The notes under the pieces are model-generated. The model did not search any database, was not told the DNA's origin, and saw nothing but the letters and a program-made list of their open reading frames with translations. Positions 43,738 to 59,925 of a DNA stretch of 64,000 nt are shown here, in pieces (the first letter of the stretch is position 1; each line of letters starts with the position of its first letter). This DNA is from Salinirubrum litoreum. GTDB taxonomy: Archaea; Halobacteriota; Halobacteria; Halobacteriales; Haloferacaceae. The DNA lies in assembly GCF_020567425.1 (NCBI RefSeq), contig NZ_JAJCVJ010000001.1, forward strand, positions 1,178,001 through 1,242,000, given 5' to 3'. The translations under genes and the position numbers were made by a program.

Positions 43738-44631
43738 ATGAGTGAAGTAGAATTCTACATAGCTCGCATTGAGTTCGATCAGCAATTAACTCTATTCGCA
43801 GGCTACAACTCAGAAAATACAGAACAGGATTTATTCTACGAAGAGATGATGGCGTTTACTGACAGGAATACTAGAGTCTATCCGCCAGAAGACGACGATG
43901 AAGAAGAAGAGCCAGAAAATGAGTGGTTCTTCGGAGACGTTCGAGGGAACAATATCATCAACAAATCGAATAGCTCGAATAGATGTATTGTTGGCAAGTT
44001 TGGGAAGTCTTACAGAAATGATCCAGAAATATACGACAGGGAAGAAGCAGACTTCGTAGAATCGGAGGAGTCAACCAAGGAGTCTGACTACTCAATGTTC
44101 ATTATCGACCCAGTTGAGGAAATAATCATCTTTAATCAGGTTTATAGAGTACGGAATAAGAACTTCAAAGACAATTTTGAGAGGGCTTACGAGGCTTTCA
44201 GGAGCGAGGATGACGGATCAATCACGTTAAAATTCATAGATAATAATAAAAGTCTAACTGAAATACTGAGCGAGTACACTGTTACGGAATCTGAGCTAAC
44301 GGTACACCCATATGCAGATGACGCCGAAGATCGAGTTGAAATTGAAAATCTCATGAACGAACTCGGTGCTAGAGAGTTTACTATTACTCCCAAAAGCGAT
44401 TTGGGATTGAATACGGATTCGGAGTTTCTGAGGGATAGTGCGGAGTTGGTGGAAGAGACTGGAAGTGATTACGAGATTGTCTACAAAACGGAGTCTGATT
44501 TGAAGGCTGTTAAAAAGTCTGGGAAAGACAATGCGATTCTCCGTGATGATAGACCGAATAGCGTTGGTTGGTATGTGAGCCATGGCTCAGAATTGATAGA
44601 ATATGCCCTTTCAATAGACGATGAGATTTAA
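43738..44631 (+). CDS. Orphan acidic protein in AT-rich island
   Basis: A 297-aa soluble protein. N-terminal mixed fold (EFYIARIEF, TLFAGYN), a hyperacidic linker PPEDDDEEEEPENE (about residues 50-62), a GKFGKS turn near 84, a beta/alpha middle with DYSMFIIDPVEEIIIFNQVY, and a C-terminal helical half ending VSHGSELIEYALS. The layout loosely recalls DUF4747-type uncharacterised proteins, but this is a guess. Codon use is AT-biased, unlike its surroundings. Convergent with the Panacea gene. It may be an effector of a conflict module. Confidence 0.72.
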   Translation: MSEVEFYIARIEFDQQLTLFAGYNSENTEQDLFYEEMMAFTDRNTRVYPPEDDDEEEEPENEWFFGDVRGNNIINKSNSSNRCIVGKFGKSYRNDPEIYDREEADFVESEESTKESDYSMFIIDPVEEIIIFNQVYRVRNKNFKDNFERAYEAFRSEDDGSITLKFIDNNKSLTEILSEYTVTESELTVHPYADDAEDRVEIENLMNELGAREFTITPKSDLGLNTDSEFLRDSAELVEETGSDYEIVYKTESDLKAVKKSGKDNAILRDDRPNSVGWYVSHGSELIEYALSIDDEI

Positions 44632-44760
44632 TTTTTGACGAATCGTACAATTAAATCGTCTTGATATTAGGGTTGATCCTGCCTAAGTCGTCATCATTCT
44701 GCGTTTGGAATAGGAGAATATTCTCTACCGCACGAGAAAGTTTTGAGATGTATATATCTA

Positions 44761-45276
44761 TTACTGCTCTAATTTCGAGAGGTCCTTGCTCAGGCGCTCT
44801 TTATTCTCACCGTACTTGCTGAAATCCATCTTCTCTCCGAATGGGAAATATTCATACAACAACGTTGACTTACTCCACTCAGCCAACTCTTCATTGGAGA
44901 ATCGTCCGTTCCGAACCATTTGGTTGGCTTCCTCAATTAATTTGAGAATATCGTCGTCTAAATTGGGGTCGCTATCTGGTGACGTGTACGCTGTCACCAC
45001 TTTGCCGTGGTGAGTGTCTGCCTTCGTACTGAATTCGTGTTTGAGTTCGTCCAATCGCTCACTCAACTCATCAGAATATGCTCCATACATGTATGGCTTG
45101 AAATCGGCAGTCGTGAGACGAATCCAGTCACGGTCTCTGAGTGAGAGCAGTTCGGCCAAGTAGACAAGTTTCTGGAGTCGGTATTCGTGGAGGTACTCGT
45201 TCGTATTGATGAATCCCCGGATGACCTCGTCAAGAGACACGGTTCCGTCCTCCGAGGCGTATTCTGGTGAACTCAT
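44761..45276 (-). CDS. Panacea-domain (DUF4065-like) antitoxin-type protein
   Basis: A 171-aa protein. The core LQKLVYLAELLSLRDRDW followed by FKPYMYGAYSDELSERLDE is the Panacea/SocA-like signature: a leucine-lysine-Tyr helix and a proline-x-tyrosine-G-x-Y/F segment. The family neutralises toxins encoded beside it. It is the second gene of a pair: 57 bp after the 340-aa membrane protein, same strand. The membrane protein or the convergent 297-aa protein could be the toxin. AT-rich like its neighbours. Confidence 0.78.
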   Translation of the reverse strand: MSSPEYASEDGTVSLDEVIRGFINTNEYLHEYRLQKLVYLAELLSLRDRDWIRLTTADFKPYMYGAYSDELSERLDELKHEFSTKADTHHGKVVTAYTSPDSDPNLDDDILKLIEEANQMVRNGRFSNEELAEWSKSTLLYEYFPFGEKMDFSKYGENKERLSKDLSKLEQ

Positions 45277-45333
45277 GAGCAGGAGTGGCCCTCCAATCCT
45301 ATAAACATCTTATTCCCAATGTATTAACTATTT

Positions 45334-46356
45334 TCACGATTCGTTGGCTTCCGACGACTCCACTTGATTCTCGTCCTGTTTAACATCGTCTTTTCTGTCT
45401 ACCGCAGTGGAGTACGCCGAGATCAGATACTCAACGTAGTGGCGCTTGTACGTGCCAGATGCATCAAAGAACACTAACGCACTGAATGCGGCTCCCAGTG
45501 GGACGAATCTATAGAACCGTGGCGGCATGAGAGAGAAGACGACTGGCTGGTGCTGAAAGAGGTCAGGAATCTGCGTCACATCAACGAGGAAGATGGTGTA
45601 GAGGGCGGCGAAAATGAACGAGACGACCCACATACTTCGACAGAACGAATACAGTGCTTGGAAGTGTCGAAACTGCGCTATTCCACTGTTTTCCAGCCGA
45701 CTCGTGACGAGCGGGTACGCAGACATGATCTCTTCGGGATTCTTCCGAAGGTCGGTTCCGTAGACCGATTCGAATGCCGTGGCGAAGGATTCGAATCCGA
45801 CACCTTTTGACTCTGTTTCCCACCGATCCTCGTTTTCTGGACTGAAGTTCCACTCTAGGTACTTGAAGAACAGATATCTGTGGCCGATGAGCGAGTCGTA
45901 CATCCCCCAGTATCGACAGCGTATCCACTCGACGAGTCCGTTCTGCCAATTGGTTCGGAGCCTCTCCGAGAAGCTACCTTTCCCGTCAGGTCCTTCGGGA
46001 TTGTAATCGGACCTCAACGTCGAGATGTTGAGTAATTCGGGCTGGTCGCTGTACAACCGGATCAGATTGAACGTCCTCCGTATTCGCTTAGCGACCCACA
46101 GAAACGATTTTTCAATGTTATCGGCAAGAGTGTGAATCCCCTGTCCGATTGTCAGCCCAGCGATCAGCAACAGGAGAAACAGCGCAGCGATGTTGACCAG
46201 TGTGATGTCCGAGCCACCGACGAACGGAACCCGATCACGAGGGAGAAGCGAAACGAGGCCGAGCGTGAATATCGCACCCGGTAACGACTTCCCGAACAGG
46301 TCGTAAGACCCGATGGATTGGATAACCTGACTCTGCGCTCGGGCCGACCCGGACAT
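45334..46356 (-). CDS. Four-TM membrane protein, possible toxin partner
   Basis: A 340-aa protein. Helices at about residues 26-40, 52-76, 239-259 and 278-298; a long cytoplasmic or extracellular helical region (about 80-235) lies between TM2 and TM3 and contains KSFLWVAKRIRRTFNLIRLY. The tail is acidic (KDDVKQDENQVESSEANES). It immediately precedes the Panacea gene. No known domain. The membrane location suits a pore-type or sensor toxin of a two-gene module, but this is inference. Confidence 0.7.
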   Translation of the reverse strand: MSGSARAQSQVIQSIGSYDLFGKSLPGAIFTLGLVSLLPRDRVPFVGGSDITLVNIAALFLLLLIAGLTIGQGIHTLADNIEKSFLWVAKRIRRTFNLIRLYSDQPELLNISTLRSDYNPEGPDGKGSFSERLRTNWQNGLVEWIRCRYWGMYDSLIGHRYLFFKYLEWNFSPENEDRWETESKGVGFESFATAFESVYGTDLRKNPEEIMSAYPLVTSRLENSGIAQFRHFQALYSFCRSMWVVSFIFAALYTIFLVDVTQIPDLFQHQPVVFSLMPPRFYRFVPLGAAFSALVFFDASGTYKRHYVEYLISAYSTAVDRKDDVKQDENQVESSEANES

Positions 46357-47089: not shown

Positions 47090-47680
47090 TCACTCGTCGG
47101 TACTGTCGGGAGTCGCATCCCCGGGAGCGTCGTCGGGGGGCCCGCTCTCGGCTTCCACGACACGTTTCCCGACTGCCTTGGGGATCACCTCGCGGTCGGC
47201 GTCCTCCCACTCCCGATCCAGTTCCCGGCCCTCGAACAGTCGATCCAGAAACACCGCCAGCGCCGCCACCTCCGAGTGGGGCTGGTTCGTCACGCCGACG
47301 TTCCAGTCGGCGTGTTCGTACACCTCGAAGGGCACCTTCTCGGAGCCGACGACGATCAGGAGTGGCTCCTCGGCGTGGGCAGTCCGAATCTCGCCCTCAA
47401 CGTCCTCGACGCGTTCGCCGTACATCGTCAGGTGGACGACCGACCCCTCCCAGTCGCGGATCAGCGGTCGGTAGGCCTCGATCACCTCCGCCGAAAACGG
47501 CCCGCCGAAACGGTCGGTGATGTCCCGGACGGTCCGGGCCGACTGGTTCGCGTCGCCGACGAACAACACCCGGTCGGCCCCGAGTGCCCGCGCCGTCAGC
47601 CCGATGTGTGTCGTCATCCGGTCGTCGCGTCCCGGTCGGTGGCCCAACCTGAGGACGACGACCTCGCGTTCCCCGTGCAT
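47090..47680 (-). CDS. trm56: tRNA (cytidine(56)-2'-O)-methyltransferase
   Basis: A 196-aa SPOUT methyltransferase that methylates C56 in the archaeal tRNA T loop. It begins GEREVVVLRLGHRPGRDDRM, has IRDWEGSVVHLTMYG in the middle, and the knot region LLIVVGSEKVPFEVYEHADW followed by NVGVTNQPHSEVAALAVFLD, all diagnostic. The Met at 47680 is chosen over one six codons upstream. Single gene 59 bp upstream of the lipoprotein gene. Confidence 0.92.
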   Translation of the reverse strand: MHGEREVVVLRLGHRPGRDDRMTTHIGLTARALGADRVLFVGDANQSARTVRDITDRFGGPFSAEVIEAYRPLIRDWEGSVVHLTMYGERVEDVEGEIRTAHAEEPLLIVVGSEKVPFEVYEHADWNVGVTNQPHSEVAALAVFLDRLFEGRELDREWEDADREVIPKAVGKRVVEAESGPPDDAPGDATPDSTDE

Positions 47681-49105: not shown

Positions 49106-50038
49106 ATGAAGCTCTCCGACAGACGGATTCTCGTCACTGGTGGGGCGGGTCTGATCGGGTCACATCTCGCGGGAGCACTGGCCGAGGACAACCACGTCGT
49201 CGCGGTCGACGACCTCTCCAAAGGGGAACGCGACCGCGTGCCCGAAGGCGTCGAGTTCGCGCGGGCCGACCTGCTCGACGCCGACGACGTCGCCGAGGTC
49301 GTCACCGAGGACCTCGACGTCGTCTTCCACCTCGCGGCGTACACGGACACGAACTTCGACGACGACCGCGTACTGTTCGAGGAGAACACCGAGATGACGT
49401 ACAACCTCCTCCAGCGCATGGAGGACGTGGGCGTGTCGAACCTCGCCTTCACCTCCTCGTCGACGGTCTACGGCGAGGCACCGATGCCGACCCCGGAGGA
49501 CTACGCACCCCTCGAACCGATCAGCATCTACGGCGCGAGCAAACTCGCCGACGAAGGCCTGCTCTCCACCTACGCACACTCGTACGATTTCCAGGTCTGG
49601 ACCTTCCGCTTCGCCAACATCGTCGGCCCGTACCAGCGCGGCAACGTCATCCCGGACTTCATCCAGAAGCTCCAGCAGGACCCCGACACGCTCACCATCC
49701 TCGGCGACGGGCGACAGGAGAAGTCGTACCTCCACGTCGAGGAGTGCGTCCGCGCCATCCAGCACGTCGTCGAACACGCCGACCGCGATCTGAACGTCTA
49801 CAACCTCGGGACGCGCACGACGACCTCGGTCACCCGAATCGCGGACATCGTCGCCGACGAGATGGGGCTCGATCCGAGCTACGAGTTCACCGGCGGCGAC
49901 CGTGGCTGGGTCGGCGACGTCCCGAAGATGCGCCTGTCGATCGAGAAGCTGTCGGCGCTCGGCTTCGAGCCACAGCAGTCCTCCGACGAGGCGGTGCGGG
50001 ACGCGGCCCGGGACCTGATCGGCGAGATCGTCGGCTGA
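49106..50038 (+). CDS. NAD-dependent sugar epimerase/dehydratase
   Basis: A 310-aa extended short-chain dehydrogenase. Rossmann motif VTGGAGLIGSHLAGAL at residues 9-24, YxxxK catalytic pair in ISIYGASKLADEG and the FRFANIVGPYQRGNVIPDF region of UDP-sugar epimerases. Probably acts on a nucleotide sugar for surface-glycan or cell-wall synthesis. The Met at 49106 is chosen because it directly precedes the Rossmann fold. No glycosyltransferase is adjacent. Confidence 0.9.
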   Translation: MKLSDRRILVTGGAGLIGSHLAGALAEDNHVVAVDDLSKGERDRVPEGVEFARADLLDADDVAEVVTEDLDVVFHLAAYTDTNFDDDRVLFEENTEMTYNLLQRMEDVGVSNLAFTSSSTVYGEAPMPTPEDYAPLEPISIYGASKLADEGLLSTYAHSYDFQVWTFRFANIVGPYQRGNVIPDFIQKLQQDPDTLTILGDGRQEKSYLHVEECVRAIQHVVEHADRDLNVYNLGTRTTTSVTRIADIVADEMGLDPSYEFTGGDRGWVGDVPKMRLSIEKLSALGFEPQQSSDEAVRDAARDLIGEIVG

Positions 50039-50421: not shown

Positions 50422-50932
50422 ACTGTGCCGGTCGTCGGCCGAGAAAATAACTCCGGTGGATGGCCGCTCGTGTCGTGGCAGTTCGGCACTGGGGGTCGGG
50501 CCTCGGTGCCGGCGGAGAGCGGGTTCGGAGGCCGACGACGTGACCCGTGACTGGCCGAGTTCCGGCGGTCGCGACCGCACCAACACCGCACCTCGGCCAC
50601 CCCGCCCTCTCGCGTCTGGCGAGAGGCACGCTCTCGCTGACCTTCGTCACCGGCGCTTCCTGCCGGTTGCTGGCGAGACGTTCGGTCTCGCCCTGTTCGT
50701 TTCACTCACGAAGACGACGAAGTCGCACGCGCCGGACCTGTTCGGAATCGCACGCACCGGCCCTGTTCGGAATCGCACGCACCGGCCCTGTTCGGAACCG
50801 GCCTCGGAGCCAGCCCGTGAGAACGCTCTCGGGAACACAGGAACTGGGCTGGAGCAGTCGCGGGCGGGGAGGTCGGTCGAGGAGCGAAGTAGAGGAGCGA
50901 CGCGAGAGTCGTGACCTCGCCGAACAGTGGGC
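50422..50932. other. Gene-free stretch with hairpins and 25-bp repeats
   Basis: About 510 bp without a supported gene. It has perfect hairpins (50607-50613/50619-50625 and 50672-50679/50685-50692), a 25-bp tandem repeat (50726-50800) and Arg/Ser-rich overlapping frames on both strands. The hairpin style resembles the cluster at 2347-2636. Confidence 0.75.
50726..50800. repeat. 25-bp tandem repeat, three copies
   Basis: Copies at 50726-50750, 50751-50775 and 50776-50800, with one or two changes each. Located between the BsuPI and halolysin genes. Confidence 0.85.
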
Positions 50933-52414: not shown

Positions 52415-53158
52415 GTGCAGATCGTGGGCTACGACCCGGTCGATCCGGCGCTCCTGCTCTCGGACGACGGTGTCCGTCGGCAGTCGCTCGCGCCGGGGAC
52501 CGACCTCGACTTCGCGCTCGCCGACCGGCACTGTGCCGGCGTCCTCGACGGCGAGACCCACCTCGCGTGTGACGCGGAGTCGGCACCCTACTGCCAGGAC
52601 CACACCTACACGTGGGTCTGTGCCCGTTGTACCGGCGACTGTCTGAAAGACGAGATGGACTGCTACGACGACCACGCCATCTACCTCGCCGCCTTCGCGC
52701 CGGCGACGTTCAAAGTCGGCGTGACGAAGGAGTACCGGCTCGAGACCCGCCTCCGCGAACAGGGGGCCGATCGCGCCGTCCACCTCCGGACGGTCGAGAA
52801 CGGGCGGATCGCCCGCGAGATCGAAGCCGGGATCGCCGAGTCGATGTCGGATCGGGTGCGCGTCCCGACGAAGGCCGAGGGACTCCACCGGTCGGTCGAC
52901 GACGCGGCCTGGGCGGACCTGCTCGACGGCTTCGACTACGAGGCCGAGTTCTCGTTCGACTACGGACTCGACCTCACGGACCGGCCGGTCGCAGAGACGA
53001 TCGCGACCGGCACGGTTCGGGGGACACAGGGTCGACTGCTCGTCCTCGACAACGCCGGGACGACCTACGCGGTCGACCTCCGGCAACTGGTCGGCTACGA
53101 CGTACGCGAGGGCGGGACCGACAGGGACCTCCAGTCGAGTCTCGGGGCGTTCGGGTAG
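52415..53158 (+). CDS. DUF2797-family protein
   Basis: A 247-aa protein with a Cys/His-rich zinc-binding region in the first third (CDAESAPYCQDHTYTWVCAR, continuing CTGDCLKDE) and a GIY-YIG-like core: IYLAAFAPATFKVGVTKEYR with R-L-REQGAD following. The motif order (Zn knuckles then YLA-F-FKVG-T) is that of the DUF2797 family, related to GIY-YIG nucleases, although catalytic residues for nuclease activity are only partly visible. GTG start supported by the TATA box. Overlaps no neighbour. Confidence 0.82.
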   Translation: MQIVGYDPVDPALLLSDDGVRRQSLAPGTDLDFALADRHCAGVLDGETHLACDAESAPYCQDHTYTWVCARCTGDCLKDEMDCYDDHAIYLAAFAPATFKVGVTKEYRLETRLREQGADRAVHLRTVENGRIAREIEAGIAESMSDRVRVPTKAEGLHRSVDDAAWADLLDGFDYEAEFSFDYGLDLTDRPVAETIATGTVRGTQGRLLVLDNAGTTYAVDLRQLVGYDVREGGTDRDLQSSLGAFG

Positions 53159-53597: not shown

Positions 53598-54539
53598 ATG
53601 TGGACGTTCGAATCCGCGACGACCCCCGCCTCGTGGACCGCAGTCGACAGCCCCGTCTCCACCACCCTCCACGCCGTCGTGCAGACAGCGAACGGTCCCT
53701 GCGCGGTCGGGAACGGTGGCTACGTCGTCGGCCGGGCGAGCGACGGCACGTGGGGCGTCGTCGTCGACGCCGGGATCGCCGCGAAGCACCGTGCCATCTA
53801 CGACGTCGCGCCGACCGACGACGGCACCCGACTCTGGCTCGTCGGTGCGAGCGGCACCGTCGGCTACTACGACCTCGCTAACGGCGAGCGTCGTGACCTC
53901 TCCGCGACACTGGAGTCGGACAGTGCCCTCCAGTCCGTCGCGGTCTCGGGACCCCGTGGCGCGGAGAAACTACTCGTCGCCGACGCGAACGGGAACGTCC
54001 TCCCAGCGGATATCGACGGCGACGCGCCGCAGTGGGGGCCGGCGACCCGCCCGGCTGGCGGCACCGTCTTCACCGACCTCGCGGCCGACGACGCCGGCGT
54101 CGGCTACGGCGTCGATACCAGTGCAAGCGTCTGGGTGACGACGGACGACGACGGCTGGAAGCGCGTCGGTATCGACGGCGAAGGAGCCAGTCTCTACGCG
54201 ATCACGACCACCGGCGACGGGCTCCTCGTCGGCGGCGGGAGCGGCCGGCTTCAGGCCTCCGACGAGGAGTTCAGGTGGACGCCGTTCTCCGTGGGCCAGG
54301 CGACCGTCTACGGACTGGACGGCGACGCAGACCGGATGGTCGCCGGCGGCGGGAGCGGGAACGTCTTCGTCCGCGAGTCCGGCGGTGACTGGCGGCCCGC
54401 CGACTGGTCGGGGAGTGCGACCCTCTACGGCGTCTGTCTCGGCGAACCGGCCGTCGCGGTCGGGGCCAGCGGGACGATCGTAGAGGGGAGCGGCGAGAGC
54501 GAGGCCACCGACGGCAGTTCGAGCGACAGCACCGCCTGA
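53598..54539 (+). CDS. Beta-propeller-like protein A
   Basis: A 313-aa soluble protein of repeated short beta motifs of the form G-x-Y/W-x2-D/E with Asn/Gly turns (AVGNGGYVVGRASDGTWG, WLVGASGTVGYYDLANG, YGVDTSASVWVTTDDDG, GGGSGNVFVRESGGDW), about five to six blades, ending with VAVGASGTIVEG. The C terminus is a Ser/Asp/Thr tail. It resembles Ycf48/BNR-type propellers. No signal peptide, so cytoplasmic. Paralogous to the protein encoded convergently at 54836. Confidence 0.78.
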   Translation: MWTFESATTPASWTAVDSPVSTTLHAVVQTANGPCAVGNGGYVVGRASDGTWGVVVDAGIAAKHRAIYDVAPTDDGTRLWLVGASGTVGYYDLANGERRDLSATLESDSALQSVAVSGPRGAEKLLVADANGNVLPADIDGDAPQWGPATRPAGGTVFTDLAADDAGVGYGVDTSASVWVTTDDDGWKRVGIDGEGASLYAITTTGDGLLVGGGSGRLQASDEEFRWTPFSVGQATVYGLDGDADRMVAGGGSGNVFVRESGGDWRPADWSGSATLYGVCLGEPAVAVGASGTIVEGSGESEATDGSSSDSTA

Positions 54540-54835
54540 GTCGGCACCTCCAATCGGTTCTAACGCTCGTCTGGGCTCTTCACTCTTCGACCGCACGACA
54601 GACAGCGACGCCTCTCTGAGAGCGTGTGTCGTCAGTGGGAGCCGACGGGGACGACCATGAGGCGACGACGACGAGACGACGAGGCGACGAGAACGACACG
54701 AGAGAGACAGACGAACAGCACCGCGAGAGTTGAGAAGAGCGGGCAGAGCAGATCGAAAACGGTCGACAGCGAGAGACGGCCGACCGCAGGGGACGAACCG
54801 AGACAGACGACGAGAGACGACCGGACCGACTCTGC
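54540..54835. other. Gene-free gap between convergent propeller genes
   Basis: About 300 bp of purine-rich low-complexity sequence (repeated GACGA/GACGAG words near 54660-54720) with no convincing gene. Confidence 0.55.
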
Positions 54836-55921
54836 TCAGGAGGTGGTGGTGGAGTCGGTCGTCGAATCGGTCGTGCTGTCCGTCGTCGAGTCGGTCGTGC
54901 TGTCCGTCGTCGAGTCTGTCGTCTCGTCCGCGTCGACGCCGTCGCCGTCGTGGAACTCGCCACGGTCGTCGAACTGGTCGCCGTCGGGGCTCGTCGTGTC
55001 CTCGGCGGCCTCGCCGCGCGGGCGGTGGATGATCGTCCCGCCCTTGCCGACCGCCACGTCCGGTTTGCCGAGCGCGAGGTCGAACAGGTTCTTCGTCACC
55101 GGCGAGGGGATGCGCTCCCAGCGCTCTTCCGAGTCGCGCTGGAAGATGTCGCCGTTGTTGCCGAGGACGACCATCTGGTCCTCGTACATGTCGAACGCGC
55201 GTAGGGAGGTCTTGTCGGTGACGCCGATGGGCGTCCAGTTCTTGTAGGAGTCGTCGTAGCGGTAGATGCGCCCGTCGCCGGCCGCGATGTAGACGCGACC
55301 GCCGCCGCCCGCGTAGATGTCGTAGAACTTCACCTGCGCGTTGACGACGCCGATATCCTCCCAGCCGTCCTCGGCGGTCGTCTTGAAGGCGTTGCCGGAG
55401 GTGTCGACCGCGTAGCCGATGCCGTCCGGACTCGCGGCGAGCGCGGAGACCTTCGACCCCTTCTTCCCGGGCTTGTGGACCTCGCCCCAACTCACGTCGA
55501 AGCCGTCCATCGTGAACGGGAGAATCTCCCCGGAGCCGTTGGCGACGAGGCCCTTCTCCGAACCGCGTGCCCCGGCGACGGTCATCCCCTCCCACGTCGA
55601 GGTCATCCCCTCCGGGCTGGAGTAGTCGAACTTCTTCTGGGTGCCCACGTCGTAACAGCCGATCGCACCGGAGGAACCGGCGAACCACAGACGCTCGCCG
55701 TCGGACGTGACCGCCAGCCCGCGAAGCTGGTTGTCACGGGTCTTCGGGCCGTCGTCGAAGATGATCTCCCAGTCGTCCTCGCGGTTGCCGAGCAGTGTCC
55801 CGCCGTCACCGATGGCGTAGGGACCCTCGACCGTCTGGACCACCTCGAACAACGCTTTCTCGAAGGGCGATTCGACTTGCTGCCATTCCGGCGCGTCGGC
55901 GTCGGGACCAAGTTCCCACAT
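54836..55921 (-). CDS. Beta-propeller-like protein B with repetitive tail
   Basis: A 361-aa paralogue of protein A: starts MWELGPDADAPEWQQVESPF (compare MWTFESATTPASWTAVDSPV), shares the blade motifs AIGDGGTLLGNREDDW, WFAGSSGAIGCYD and the last blade VAVGKGGTIIHRP. It carries a long acidic tail ending in six or seven TTDS units (DNA repeats near 54842-54930). No signal peptide. The KAP NTPase gene is 210 bp upstream on the opposite strand (divergent). Confidence 0.8.
   Translation of the reverse strand: MWELGPDADAPEWQQVESPFEKALFEVVQTVEGPYAIGDGGTLLGNREDDWEIIFDDGPKTRDNQLRGLAVTSDGERLWFAGSSGAIGCYDVGTQKKFDYSSPEGMTSTWEGMTVAGARGSEKGLVANGSGEILPFTMDGFDVSWGEVHKPGKKGSKVSALAASPDGIGYAVDTSGNAFKTTAEDGWEDIGVVNAQVKFYDIYAGGGGRVYIAAGDGRIYRYDDSYKNWTPIGVTDKTSLRAFDMYEDQMVVLGNNGDIFQRDSEERWERIPSPVTKNLFDLALGKPDVAVGKGGTIIHRPRGEAAEDTTSPDGDQFDDRGEFHDGDGVDADETTDSTTDSTTDSTTDSTTDSTTDSTTTS
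54842..54930. repeat. 24-bp DNA repeat encoding TTDS units
   Basis: A 24-bp unit (two TTDS codon groups) repeats about three times with small variations at the 3' end of the propeller B gene. Confidence 0.75.
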
Positions 55922-56130
55922 TGCGACTGGACGTTCGGCCGATATCCACTTCAATCGGGGCGAACTGTTGGAATTCTGGAACCGATATTCGGTCTGTTTT
56001 ACCTGACCGTCCGGTTACCTCGGGCGATCGGTCACGGCTGTCGGCGGCGTCCCACGGATCCCACCGGAGTCGTCCGGACGAACCTACTTGCCCTCGCTCG
56101 TCGTATCTGCACAGTTGGGAGTGTGAACAG

Positions 56131-58344
56131 ATGGCAGACCAACCGTTCCCGGTGCTCACGGAGGAGGTGGAACGTCTCCTCCCGCCCGTAGACGACGCGA
56201 CGCCGATACCGGCGGTGGAACTGCTCCTGTCGCTGGTCGACCCGGGCCCCGACTCGAAGAGCGAGGTACCCGAGTCGAGCGAATCGGCCGACTTCGGGGC
56301 GTCACGACCCGACCCGCCCGAGTGGCTGTACGACACCACCCTCCAGAGCGGCGACGCCGCCACAGCCGAGGCCCGGACACTCCCCGACTGGCTCTCCGAG
56401 ATCCGACTCCTCTACGAGGAGCAGATGGTTTCGGCGCTCTCGGTCCCGGCGGTGGTCGTCGGCGTCGGGATACTCGTTCCGGACCTCGGAAGCCAACTGG
56501 TCACCGCCAACTTCCTCGGCGTGTACGTGGACGAACTCGTCGCCGAACACGGTGTCGAGACGTTCACAGACTTGCTGACGGACGAGGGCCGGAAGTCCGC
56601 CGAGCGAGTGATCGGGAACAACGGTCCACCCCCGATCGAACACGTCCCGATCCACGCCGACGACCCGCTGACGGACGCCGACGCCGACGAACTCGGGCGG
56701 GACCTGTTCGCCGAGTATCTCGCGCTCCGACTCCGAGACGCGCGGGCCGCGACCTCGGGTGCCTACTCGGTCCACCTCGACGGGCCGTGGGGGGCCGGCA
56801 AGAGCACGCTCCTGCACTTCCTCGACGACCACCTCACGGCACCTCGGACTGCCGACGACGACCGAGAGACAGCGGGCGGCACGGACGACGCGACACCGGC
56901 CGAGTCGGACGGTGCCCCGACACCGACGGAACTGGGCGACGAGTGGGTCGTCGTCCACTTCAACGCCTGGCAACACCAGCACCTCCGGCCGCCGTGGTGG
57001 GCACTGCTGGACCGCATCTTCCACGACACGCGGTCGCAACTCCTGCCGGGTGACCGCCTCCGGCAACGCTGGTGGCGGTTCAGCCGGAGTGGGCGACTCG
57101 CGGCCTACGCACTCGTCGGCGTGTTCGGCTGGGTCGTCGTCGGGACACTCCTCGCGGTGGCGTTCGCCGGGCCGGACTCGCTCGCCGAACCGGGGACGGT
57201 GGTGGCGCAGTTCGTCGCCAACGCGGACGCACTCGGGGCGATATTCGGGGTGGTGGTCGCCGGCCTGGCGCTCCGAGACGCGGTCGTCTCGCCGACGGTC
57301 CCCCGGTCGGCACACGCGGCCCAGCGCTACGTCGACTACCGGAGCGAACCGATGACCGAGATAACGGCGCTGTTCGGCGACCTCATCGAGAGCGTCCAGC
57401 GGAGCAGTCCGCCCGGGAGACGGCGGCAGGTCGCGGTGTTCGTCGACGACCTGGACCGGTGTGCGAGCGAGTACGTGGTCGAACTGCTGGAGGGCATCCA
57501 GACCCTCTTTCGGCGGGCACCGGTCGTGTTCGTCGTCGCGGGCGACGGTCAGTGGCTCACGACCTGCTTCGAGTCGGTGTACGCGGGCCACGAGGCGGTG
57601 GCCGAGACGCCCGGCACCTCCCTCGGGACGCTGTTCGTCGAGAAGACGTTCCAGTTCTCCGCGCCGGTGCCGGGCATCGACCCGGCGCTCCAGTCGGCCT
57701 ACTGGCAGGGACTCACCCGCGTCCGACCGCCGGCCGAGACCGGAGACGGCCAGTCGTCGGATCTGATCGACTCCCGCGAGACCCCTGCCGGGGTCACGAC
57801 AGCGCCGACAGCGAAGACCGGGACCCCGGAGACGGACACCGTCGCCGGGCAGGACGAGGATGCCGAGGCGGAGGTCGGTCCCGGCGCGGAGGACGCGTCG
57901 GTCCGCGAACGCGTCGAGGCACGGCGTGCCGACGTCCGGTCGTTGGCCTCCCGTCGGGAGCAGGCGGCGTCGGAACGACTGCTCCTCTCGACGCTCGGCG
58001 ACCTGCTGGCACCGAACCCGCGCGGCATGAAACGTCTCGTCAACACCTACAGCGCGAACCGGGCACTGGCACTCATCGCCGGAGCCGACCTCTCGGAGGC
58101 AGTGCTGGCGCGGTGGACGATCCTCTCGCTCCGCTGGCCCGCGCTGGCCGACTATCTGGCTCGGCACCCCGAGCAGGTCACGAGCATCGGTGTGTCGAGT
58201 CCGCCAGACGTGGACGAAGACCTCCAGACCCTTTTCGCCGACGAGTCCGGGGACGTCTGGCGGACTGCCTTCGGCGAGGTAGGTGACTCTGTCGAACCAC
58301 TCGACGCCGAGGCTGTTCGGGACTGTGCCGCGATCAGTGCGTGA
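56131..58344 (+). CDS. KAP-family P-loop NTPase
   Basis: A 737-aa protein. N-terminal region (about residues 1-205) with DUF-like helical content, then the P-loop GPWGAGKST (218-226), two membrane-like hydrophobic segments (about 323-347 and 371-389) inserted between Walker A and B as in the KAP family, Walker B AVFVDDLDRC (about 436-445) and the C-terminal Arg-finger stretch NPRGMKRLVNTYSANRALAL. An acidic low-complexity region (about 560-600) follows. The Met at 56131 follows a short promoter. KAP NTPases often act in membrane-associated conflict systems; here the neighbours are the two propellers. Confidence 0.88.
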   Translation: MADQPFPVLTEEVERLLPPVDDATPIPAVELLLSLVDPGPDSKSEVPESSESADFGASRPDPPEWLYDTTLQSGDAATAEARTLPDWLSEIRLLYEEQMVSALSVPAVVVGVGILVPDLGSQLVTANFLGVYVDELVAEHGVETFTDLLTDEGRKSAERVIGNNGPPPIEHVPIHADDPLTDADADELGRDLFAEYLALRLRDARAATSGAYSVHLDGPWGAGKSTLLHFLDDHLTAPRTADDDRETAGGTDDATPAESDGAPTPTELGDEWVVVHFNAWQHQHLRPPWWALLDRIFHDTRSQLLPGDRLRQRWWRFSRSGRLAAYALVGVFGWVVVGTLLAVAFAGPDSLAEPGTVVAQFVANADALGAIFGVVVAGLALRDAVVSPTVPRSAHAAQRYVDYRSEPMTEITALFGDLIESVQRSSPPGRRRQVAVFVDDLDRCASEYVVELLEGIQTLFRRAPVVFVVAGDGQWLTTCFESVYAGHEAVAETPGTSLGTLFVEKTFQFSAPVPGIDPALQSAYWQGLTRVRPPAETGDGQSSDLIDSRETPAGVTTAPTAKTGTPETDTVAGQDEDAEAEVGPGAEDASVRERVEARRADVRSLASRREQAASERLLLSTLGDLLAPNPRGMKRLVNTYSANRALALIAGADLSEAVLARWTILSLRWPALADYLARHPEQVTSIGVSSPPDVDEDLQTLFADESGDVWRTAFGEVGDSVEPLDAEAVRDCAAISA

Positions 58345-58368: not shown

Positions 58369-59646
58369 TCAGTCGTGGACCGCACTCGCCGCGCGCACGA
58401 TGGTCTCCTCGCCGAACTTCGGGCCGATGAGTTGCAGGCCGACCGGGAGGCCGTCCGTCTCGCCGGCCGGCACCGAGATGGCCGGGACGTTGGCGAGGTT
58501 CACGGGGACCGTGTTCGCGTCCGCGAGGTACATCTGCAGGGGGTCGTCCAGACTCTCGCCGAGTTCGAAAGGCGTCACCGGCATCGTCGGCGAGGCCAGC
58601 ACGTCCGCGTCCGAAAGCGCGTCGTCGAAGTCCTGCTTCAGCCACGCGCGAGCGTCCTGTGCCTGCTTGTAGTACTTGTCGTGGTACCCCGCCGAGAGGG
58701 CGTAGGTGCCGAGCAGGATGCGGCGCTTGACCTCCGGCCCGAAGCCCTCGTCGCGGGCCTTCGCGAAGGATTCGTTCCAGTTGCCGTCGTAGCCACCGGA
58801 GACACCGTAGCGCACGCCGTCGAAGCGCGCGAGGTTCGAGGACGCCTCGGACATGGCGATGACGTAGTAGGCCGCGACCGCCGTCTCTACCGAGGGCATG
58901 CTGACCTCGTGGTACTCCGCACCCTGTGCTTCGAGGTCGGCGATGGCGTCCCAGAACGTCTCGACGACGCCCTCCTCGGCTCCTTCGATCAGTTCGGTCG
59001 GGACGCCGATGGTCAGGCCGTCCACGTCGCCGTCCGCGGCGGCGGCGTAGTCAGACGCTGCTCCCTCGTCGTGGGTCGTCGCGTCACGCTCGTCCGGGCC
59101 GGCGAGCACGTCGAGTAGTCCGGCGGCCCCCTCCACCGTGGGTGCGATGGGACCGATCTGTTCGAGACTGTTCGCGTACGCGACGAGGCCGTACCGCGAG
59201 ACGAGACCGTAGGTCGGCTTGATGCCGACGACGCCACAGAAGGCGGCCGGACACCGGATCGACCCGCCGGTGTCGGTGCCGAGTGCGAGGTCCGCCTCGC
59301 CGCCGGCGACCGCCGCCGCGGAGCCACCCGAGGAGCCACCGGGCACGCGGTCGGTGTCCAGCGGGTTGCGCGTCGGGCCGAAGTGGGAGGTCTCCGTGGT
59401 CGTGCCCATCCCGAACTCGTCCATGTTCGTCTTCCCGACGATGGTCGCGCCCGCCGCCTTCAGGCGCTCGACGACCGTGGCGTCGTACGGCGGGACGTAG
59501 TCTTCGAGCATCGCCGACCCGCAGGTGGTGCGCACGCCCTCGGTCGAGATGTTGTCCTTCACCGCGACCGTGGTGCCGGAGAGCGGTCCCTCGTCGGTCG
59601 GGTCGATCTCGGCGTCGGTGACGAAGGCGTTCAGATCCGTGCTCAT
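58369..59646 (-). CDS. gatA: Glutamyl-tRNA(Gln) amidotransferase subunit A
   Basis: A 425-aa amidase. The amidase signature GGSSGGSAAAVAGGEADLAL is complete, with catalytic Ser in TDTGGSIRCPAAFCG and catalytic Lys in GTTVAVKDNISTEG. It supplies ammonia to transamidate Glu-tRNA(Gln) or Asp-tRNA(Asn). It follows gatC directly (adjacent stop and start at 59646/59647). gatB is not in this window. Confidence 0.93.
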   Translation of the reverse strand: MSTDLNAFVTDAEIDPTDEGPLSGTTVAVKDNISTEGVRTTCGSAMLEDYVPPYDATVVERLKAAGATIVGKTNMDEFGMGTTTETSHFGPTRNPLDTDRVPGGSSGGSAAAVAGGEADLALGTDTGGSIRCPAAFCGVVGIKPTYGLVSRYGLVAYANSLEQIGPIAPTVEGAAGLLDVLAGPDERDATTHDEGAASDYAAAADGDVDGLTIGVPTELIEGAEEGVVETFWDAIADLEAQGAEYHEVSMPSVETAVAAYYVIAMSEASSNLARFDGVRYGVSGGYDGNWNESFAKARDEGFGPEVKRRILLGTYALSAGYHDKYYKQAQDARAWLKQDFDDALSDADVLASPTMPVTPFELGESLDDPLQMYLADANTVPVNLANVPAISVPAGETDGLPVGLQLIGPKFGEETIVRAASAVHD

Positions 59647-59925
59647 CTACGACACCTTCGGTCCTTTGAAGAAGCCGTCCTCGGTCTCCGGGGCGTTCGC
59701 CAGCGCCTCCTCCTGGCTGAGGCCCTCACGGACCTCGTCTTCTCGCATGACGTTCACGAGGTCCGGTTCGGACTCCACTTCCGGCACCTCGTCCAGCGCC
59801 TCGAAGTAGTCCAGGATGTCGCCGAACTGGTCGGCGAACTCCGCGACCTCCTCGTCGGCGAGGTCGACGCGCGCCAACTCGGCGACGTGGCGCACGTCCT
59901 CGGCGTCGACAGACGATTCGCTCAT
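59647..59925 (-). CDS. gatC: Glutamyl-tRNA(Gln) amidotransferase subunit C
   Basis: A 92-aa helical subunit: DAEDVRHVAELARVDLADEE followed by FADQFGDILDYFEALDEVPE and the PxVSMR-like ending ETEDGFFKGPKVS. It stabilises GatA-GatB and is translated just before gatA. The Met at 59925 (MSESSVDAEDV) is the family start; the frame upstream is Arg-rich. Confidence 0.92.
   Translation of the reverse strand: MSESSVDAEDVRHVAELARVDLADEEVAEFADQFGDILDYFEALDEVPEVESEPDLVNVMREDEVREGLSQEEALANAPETEDGFFKGPKVS

Follow-up and report, generated by a model that had tools for sequence, protein, structure and literature searches.

Tmn, a KAP NTPase, blocks several phages by a mechanism that is unexplored (PMC11846954), and QatA, another KAP NTPase, binds DNA and assembles into heptamers or octamers (PMC13279940). 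STAND NTPases in conflict systems can, in addition, be replaced by KAP domains (PMC8195603; PMC10907252). Here we analyse a KAP P-loop NTPase gene in a 64,000-nt stretch of DNA from the haloarchaeon Salinirubrum litoreum (the window), where a first-pass annotation had combined it with two neighbouring beta-propeller genes, here propA and propB, into a functional unit. KAP proteins also serve outside defence, and the family includes scaffolding proteins such as Kidins220/ARMS.

The best PADLOC models for the KAP protein were the candidate PDC-S20 (E 1.4e-16) and PifA (E 3.5e-12), but the PifA match covers residues 174–240 only and the PDC-S20 match consists of two local stretches, so that neither profile covers most of the protein. 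With Tmn, PifA and PDC-S20 it shares the KAP core, the Walker A motif, the DDLDRC Walker B motif, two inserted transmembrane (TM) helices, a single-gene layout and a patchy distribution; it differs from them in its N-terminal helical domain, which is another, unnamed one. The likeness to Tmn is one of kind; PADLOC gave no Tmn match, but its library may lack a model of this protein. QatA of Qatuor is likewise a KAP NTPase, and the protein matches NF041923 locally (E 8e-12), but it scores 44.6 bits against an equivalog cut-off of 600, and QatB, the QueC-like QatC and the TatD-like QatD are all absent beside the KAP gene, as the first-pass annotation had observed. The top solved-structure match of the KAP model was RdrA of the RADAR defence system, a weak one (E 5e-4, TM score about 0.2), and the adenosine deaminase partner of RADAR is absent among the genes flanking KAP.

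Organization of the locus

The trio consists of propA (53598–54539, forward strand, 313 aa), its divergent paralogue propB (54836–55921, reverse strand, 361 aa) and the KAP gene (56131–58344, forward strand, 737 aa). Their coordinates, strands and orientation are those originally annotated: propA and propB lie tail to tail, whereas propB and KAP diverge from an intergenic region that, from the sequence, measures 209 bp (55922–56130). Both propeller proteins begin with the residues MW, and the propB reading frame extends open to a TTG at 55954. The KAP frame is open in the 5′ direction as far as 55795, in a longer version that would overlap propB, and the ATG at 56131 is the plausible start. 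The three genes had been described as a compact block, and in geometry this is fair, but the trio is not singled out from its surroundings: gatA (58369–59646, reverse strand), which is convergent with KAP and lies beside gatC (59647–59925), has its 3′ end only 24 bp from the end of KAP.

These are real genes in an ordinary neighbourhood, surrounded by gatA/gatC, a DUF2797 gene (52415–53158), a subtilase gene and an epimerase gene (49106–50038). The DUF2797 and epimerase genes, together with aTrm56 (47090–47680), belong to a neighbourhood that recurs in part around propB in other genomes. Downstream of the subtilase gene, before the next gene, a 25-bp unit (TCGCACGCACCGGCCCTGTTCGGAA) occurs three times in tandem (50723–50797). 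Near KAP we saw no clear defence island, only a small SocA/Panacea islet at 44.8 kb. This islet (43738–46356) is low in GC (about 46%) and holds a gene for an unknown protein (43738–44631, forward strand), a weakly recognized SocA/Panacea antitoxin-like gene (44761–45276, reverse strand) and a gene for a probable membrane protein of 340 aa (45334–46356, reverse strand). The possibility that KAP is part of a mobile element was considered and set aside: flanking repeats were uninformative, no tRNA lies nearby and no Rfam element was found.

An intact KAP NTPase with an N-terminal helical domain

Comparison with Pfam placed the protein in the KAP P-loop NTPase family (PF07693; E 2.7e-19; 69.9 bits, cut-off 20), in agreement with the identity first given to it. 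All motifs are present and the NTPase is intact: Walker A reads GPWGAGKST (residues 218–226) and Walker B DDLDRC (residues 439–444), FNAW follows Walker A at residues 277–280, and NPRGMKR (residues 629–635) lies within the C-terminal helical part; alignment columns 220–224 and 439–444 are invariant. The membrane segments that had been noticed earlier correspond to two helices (about residues 322–345 and 357–386) inserted between Walker A and Walker B, so that the protein has the topology of the KAP family, with Walker A, a DDLDR Walker B and TM segments between them.

In the AF2 model of KAP (pLDDT 79.8), the N-terminal domain is helical (residues 8–165), with much of the span modelled at fair confidence, and residues 536–578 form a low-confidence insert. 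The helix pattern of the N-terminal domain gave rise to the idea of a Clp_N domain; residues 1–170 had no Pfam match, and hhalign comparison with the N-domains of E. coli ClpA and ClpB, made on small alignments, was not significant. The composition of KAP is close to that of its genome (GC3 of 0.86 against a mean of 0.89; acidic residues 15.7% against 15.5%), which suggests that any transfer was not recent and that the gene could have taken another role.

Two propellers of a large haloarchaeal family

The propellers proved to be paralogues, as had been proposed, with 35% identity across 314 aa (E 8e-58). The propB protein lies above the Pfam cut-off of the HVO_0234-like propeller family (PF23366; E 7.8e-11, score 42.5 against 27), and its model has 28 strands arranged as seven blades of four; the nearest PDB structures are WD40, virginiamycin B lyase (Vgb) and YCF48 propellers. 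By itself, propA has no Pfam match, and we count it with the propellers because it is a clear paralogue of propB. The YCF48 profile PF14870 (PSII_BNR) matched neither protein, although the propB fold is close to YCF48. PHROGs, PADLOC and NCBIfam searches of both proteins gave nothing useful, no signal sequence was seen in either, and a propB search of viral contigs revealed no relatives. A 12-bp tandem repeat in propB (about 54845–54928) encodes a DSTT-rich, low-complexity C-terminal tail.

HVO_0234/YCF48-like propellers make up a large family in haloarchaea, of which propA and propB are members; these proteins are probably protein-interaction scaffolds. Relatives of propB in the haloarchaeal genomes G063 and G090 are about 60–63% identical to it. 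In the propeller tree, propB forms a clade with two G063 copies, one G090 copy and one Natrinema plasmid copy (100/99), and propA is a long branch inside a wider 12-row clade that also holds propB. At other loci (L038, in this same genome at C1 976–996 kb, and L039, L040, L041 and L042), propeller paralogues are paired on the same strand, about 5–12 kb apart, around a gene cluster conserved in haloarchaea, made up of a COX1-type oxidase subunit, a TM protein, an ArsP_1 permease and often a DUF389 protein; in many cases one of the two paralogues shows a lipoprotein-like N terminus. By analogy with YCF48, these paired propellers are possibly assembly factors. Denitrification was also considered as a context for the propellers, and a paper on it proved not relevant.

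KAP and the propellers are not retained together

For the comparison across haloarchaea we used 99 genomes, the own genome included and no other of the same genus among them, and counted matches with E below 1e-10 as propB relatives. Such relatives are present in 39 of the 99, whereas KAP is confined to its own genome and absent from the 98 others. Among 170 genomes of the same family there was no close KAP relative, only three partial, weak KAP matches. A KAP HMM run on the propeller loci of other genomes and on the loci of the other paralogues in this genome detected no KAP; many of these loci were compared with flanks of 1.5 kb only, and the contig scan may omit very near genomes. Conversely, a propeller HMM run on 116 KAP-containing loci and six further haloarchaeal KAP loci found no adjoining propeller of the HVO_0234-type family, and its single match sits within a KAP protein itself, that of Cellvibrio (L160; E 3.8e-6). 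The neighbours of KAP at the six haloarchaeal loci are unrelated and include no propellers.

The neighbourhood of propB is partly conserved in another haloarchaeal family. The propB loci of G063 and G090 have aTrm56 and the epimerase gene in common with the window (G063 also DUF2797), all without KAP. In 29 relatives, gatA never has KAP or a propeller beside it, and the gene downstream of gatA varies from genome to genome. A conserved KAP–propeller system would be retained jointly across genomes, and these genes are not. The expectation that the block is conserved across haloarchaea does not hold, and since KAP and the propellers are not co-conserved, the outcome that the first-pass annotation had itself named as refuting, the functional unit it proposed finds no support: KAP is lacking at the propeller loci of other genomes, propellers are lacking beside other KAPs, and the genes have different histories.

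KAP relatives and a probable bacterial origin

A query of genome contigs and viral contigs with the single KAP protein revealed no close relatives; an alignment query recovered KAP relatives, whose distribution in GTDB is patchy. The nearest is a protein from Ca. Tectomicrobia (L091; 40% identity), with which KAP is paired in the tree (96/94) inside a mostly bacterial clade, whereas four other haloarchaeal KAPs from the same search form a clade of their own (100/100) across a 100/99 branch. This placement suggests that KAP is probably an independent acquisition; the gene was probably acquired from bacteria, with gatA as the flank of the putative insertion, and long enough ago to have attained a host-like composition.

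The N-terminal helical domain and the KAP core are both common to a subfamily with members in Ca. Tectomicrobia (L091), Ca. Methanoperedenaceae (L093), Neomarinimicrobiota (L110), Acetothermia (L119) and bacterium M3-30 (L092), which are about 28–40% identical to this KAP and all of which went into building the N-domain HMM; among the remaining sampled KAP relatives this domain was not found. Flanking genes differ among all members of the subfamily, and none has an HVO_0234-family propeller beside it. More broadly, no family was seen more than three times among 138 genes adjoining KAP relatives, that is, there is no recurrent partner. The N-terminal parts of 68 KAP relatives revealed a variety of domains, among them TIR (4), caspase C14 (3), WD40 (3), pentapeptide (3) and Clp_N (3).

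Downstream of the Acetothermia KAP, and convergent with it, lies a Vgb-like propeller gene (10036–10878 of L119), probably by chance. In the Ca. Tectomicrobia locus (L091, 1–17771), KAP sits between an SpvB/TcB-like ORF, called from a visible N-terminal motif and not from Pfam, with which it overlaps by 4 bp, and a TcA-like ORF that carries ABC_toxin_N and Neuraminidase domains. Two genes upstream of the Neomarinimicrobiota KAP (L110) is a gene for a Peptidase_G2/Collar-like (tail-collar-like) protein. Propellers are also found fused to KAP: a WD40–KAP protein occurs in Rhodococcus rhodnii (L102), with the same layout in the near-identical L100 of Kibdelosporangium aridum, and the Cellvibrio protein carries a YCF48-type propeller N-terminal of a TM segment, followed by KAP in one chain.

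Interpretation of the locus

We hold with moderate confidence that the trio is a chance juxtaposition, in which members of a haloarchaeal propeller family adjoin a stand-alone, patchily distributed KAP of bacterial affinity, placed between propB and gatA and acting by a putative antiviral mechanism. The propeller–KAP fusions seen elsewhere are a mild argument for a functional link instead. KAP itself is probably a stand-alone, membrane-anchored antiviral NTPase that resembles Tmn and PifA in kind. The stand-alone genes of its relatives, their patchy spread and their swapped effector and sensor domains point to an immune-type NTPase, and these relatives make a defence-type role more likely. Arguments to the contrary are the weak fold match to RdrA, the KAP proteins with non-defence roles, the lack of a clear defence island and the host-like composition, given which the gene could have settled in another role.

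In the proposed mechanism, the pair of helices within the NTPase domain would anchor KAP in the membrane, and the protein would oligomerise through that domain, perhaps into a ring. The N-terminal helical domain would sense an invader or deliver the effect, and an NTP-driven rearrangement could then damage the membrane or the cell and block virus or plasmid propagation. Such a damage-based block would parallel proposals for other single-gene KAP defence proteins.

Alternatively, KAP may be a housekeeping-type membrane NTPase of its lineage, engaged in signalling or scaffolding and not in defence. Its composition matches the genome, a strong defence island is absent nearby and the family takes in scaffolds of the Kidins220/ARMS kind, but a housekeeping role fits poorly with the absence of KAP from 98 haloarchaeal relatives and its patchiness in GTDB, with the TIR- and caspase-type fusions among its relatives and with a tree position apart from other haloarchaeal KAPs, and we consider it unlikely.

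A partnership of KAP with propB, and perhaps propA, would amount to a split fusion, a sensor–NTPase pair in which the cytosolic propeller would serve to recognize a target and to control the membrane NTPase. The WD40–KAP (L102, L100) and YCF48–KAP (L160) fusions make this mechanistically plausible, and propB and KAP have the 209-bp divergent region in common. However, propeller domains are common, the propeller loci of other genomes are without KAP, propB orthologues occur in genomes that lack it, and the Cellvibrio propeller precedes the TM segment and is probably extracytoplasmic, whereas propA and propB have no signal sequence. At this locus adjacency is all that favours the pair, which appears rather improbable. 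Still more doubtful is a two-component archaeal immune receptor, in which the cytosolic YCF48/HVO_0234-type propB, possibly with propA, would serve in trans as the KAP sensor in the manner of the bacterial fusions. A place for KAP in conflict machinery of a secreted or tail-like type, as the Tc-toxin-like genes overlapping and flanking its relative in L091 and the collar-like protein in L110 might suggest, is very improbable, given that neither Tc-toxin-like nor tail genes were recognized near KAP in the window and that the neighbours in L092, L093 and L119 are unrelated.

As a probable chance neighbour of the propellers, this KAP cautions that three adjacent genes need not make a system. If our reading is correct, it would add a haloarchaeal member to a mostly bacterial KAP subfamily with an unnamed N-terminal domain, through an acquisition separate from that of other haloarchaeal KAPs. 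The TIR, caspase, WD40 and YCF48-type domains found on KAP cores would offer a concrete way of testing the poorly understood sensing and action of KAP NTPases.
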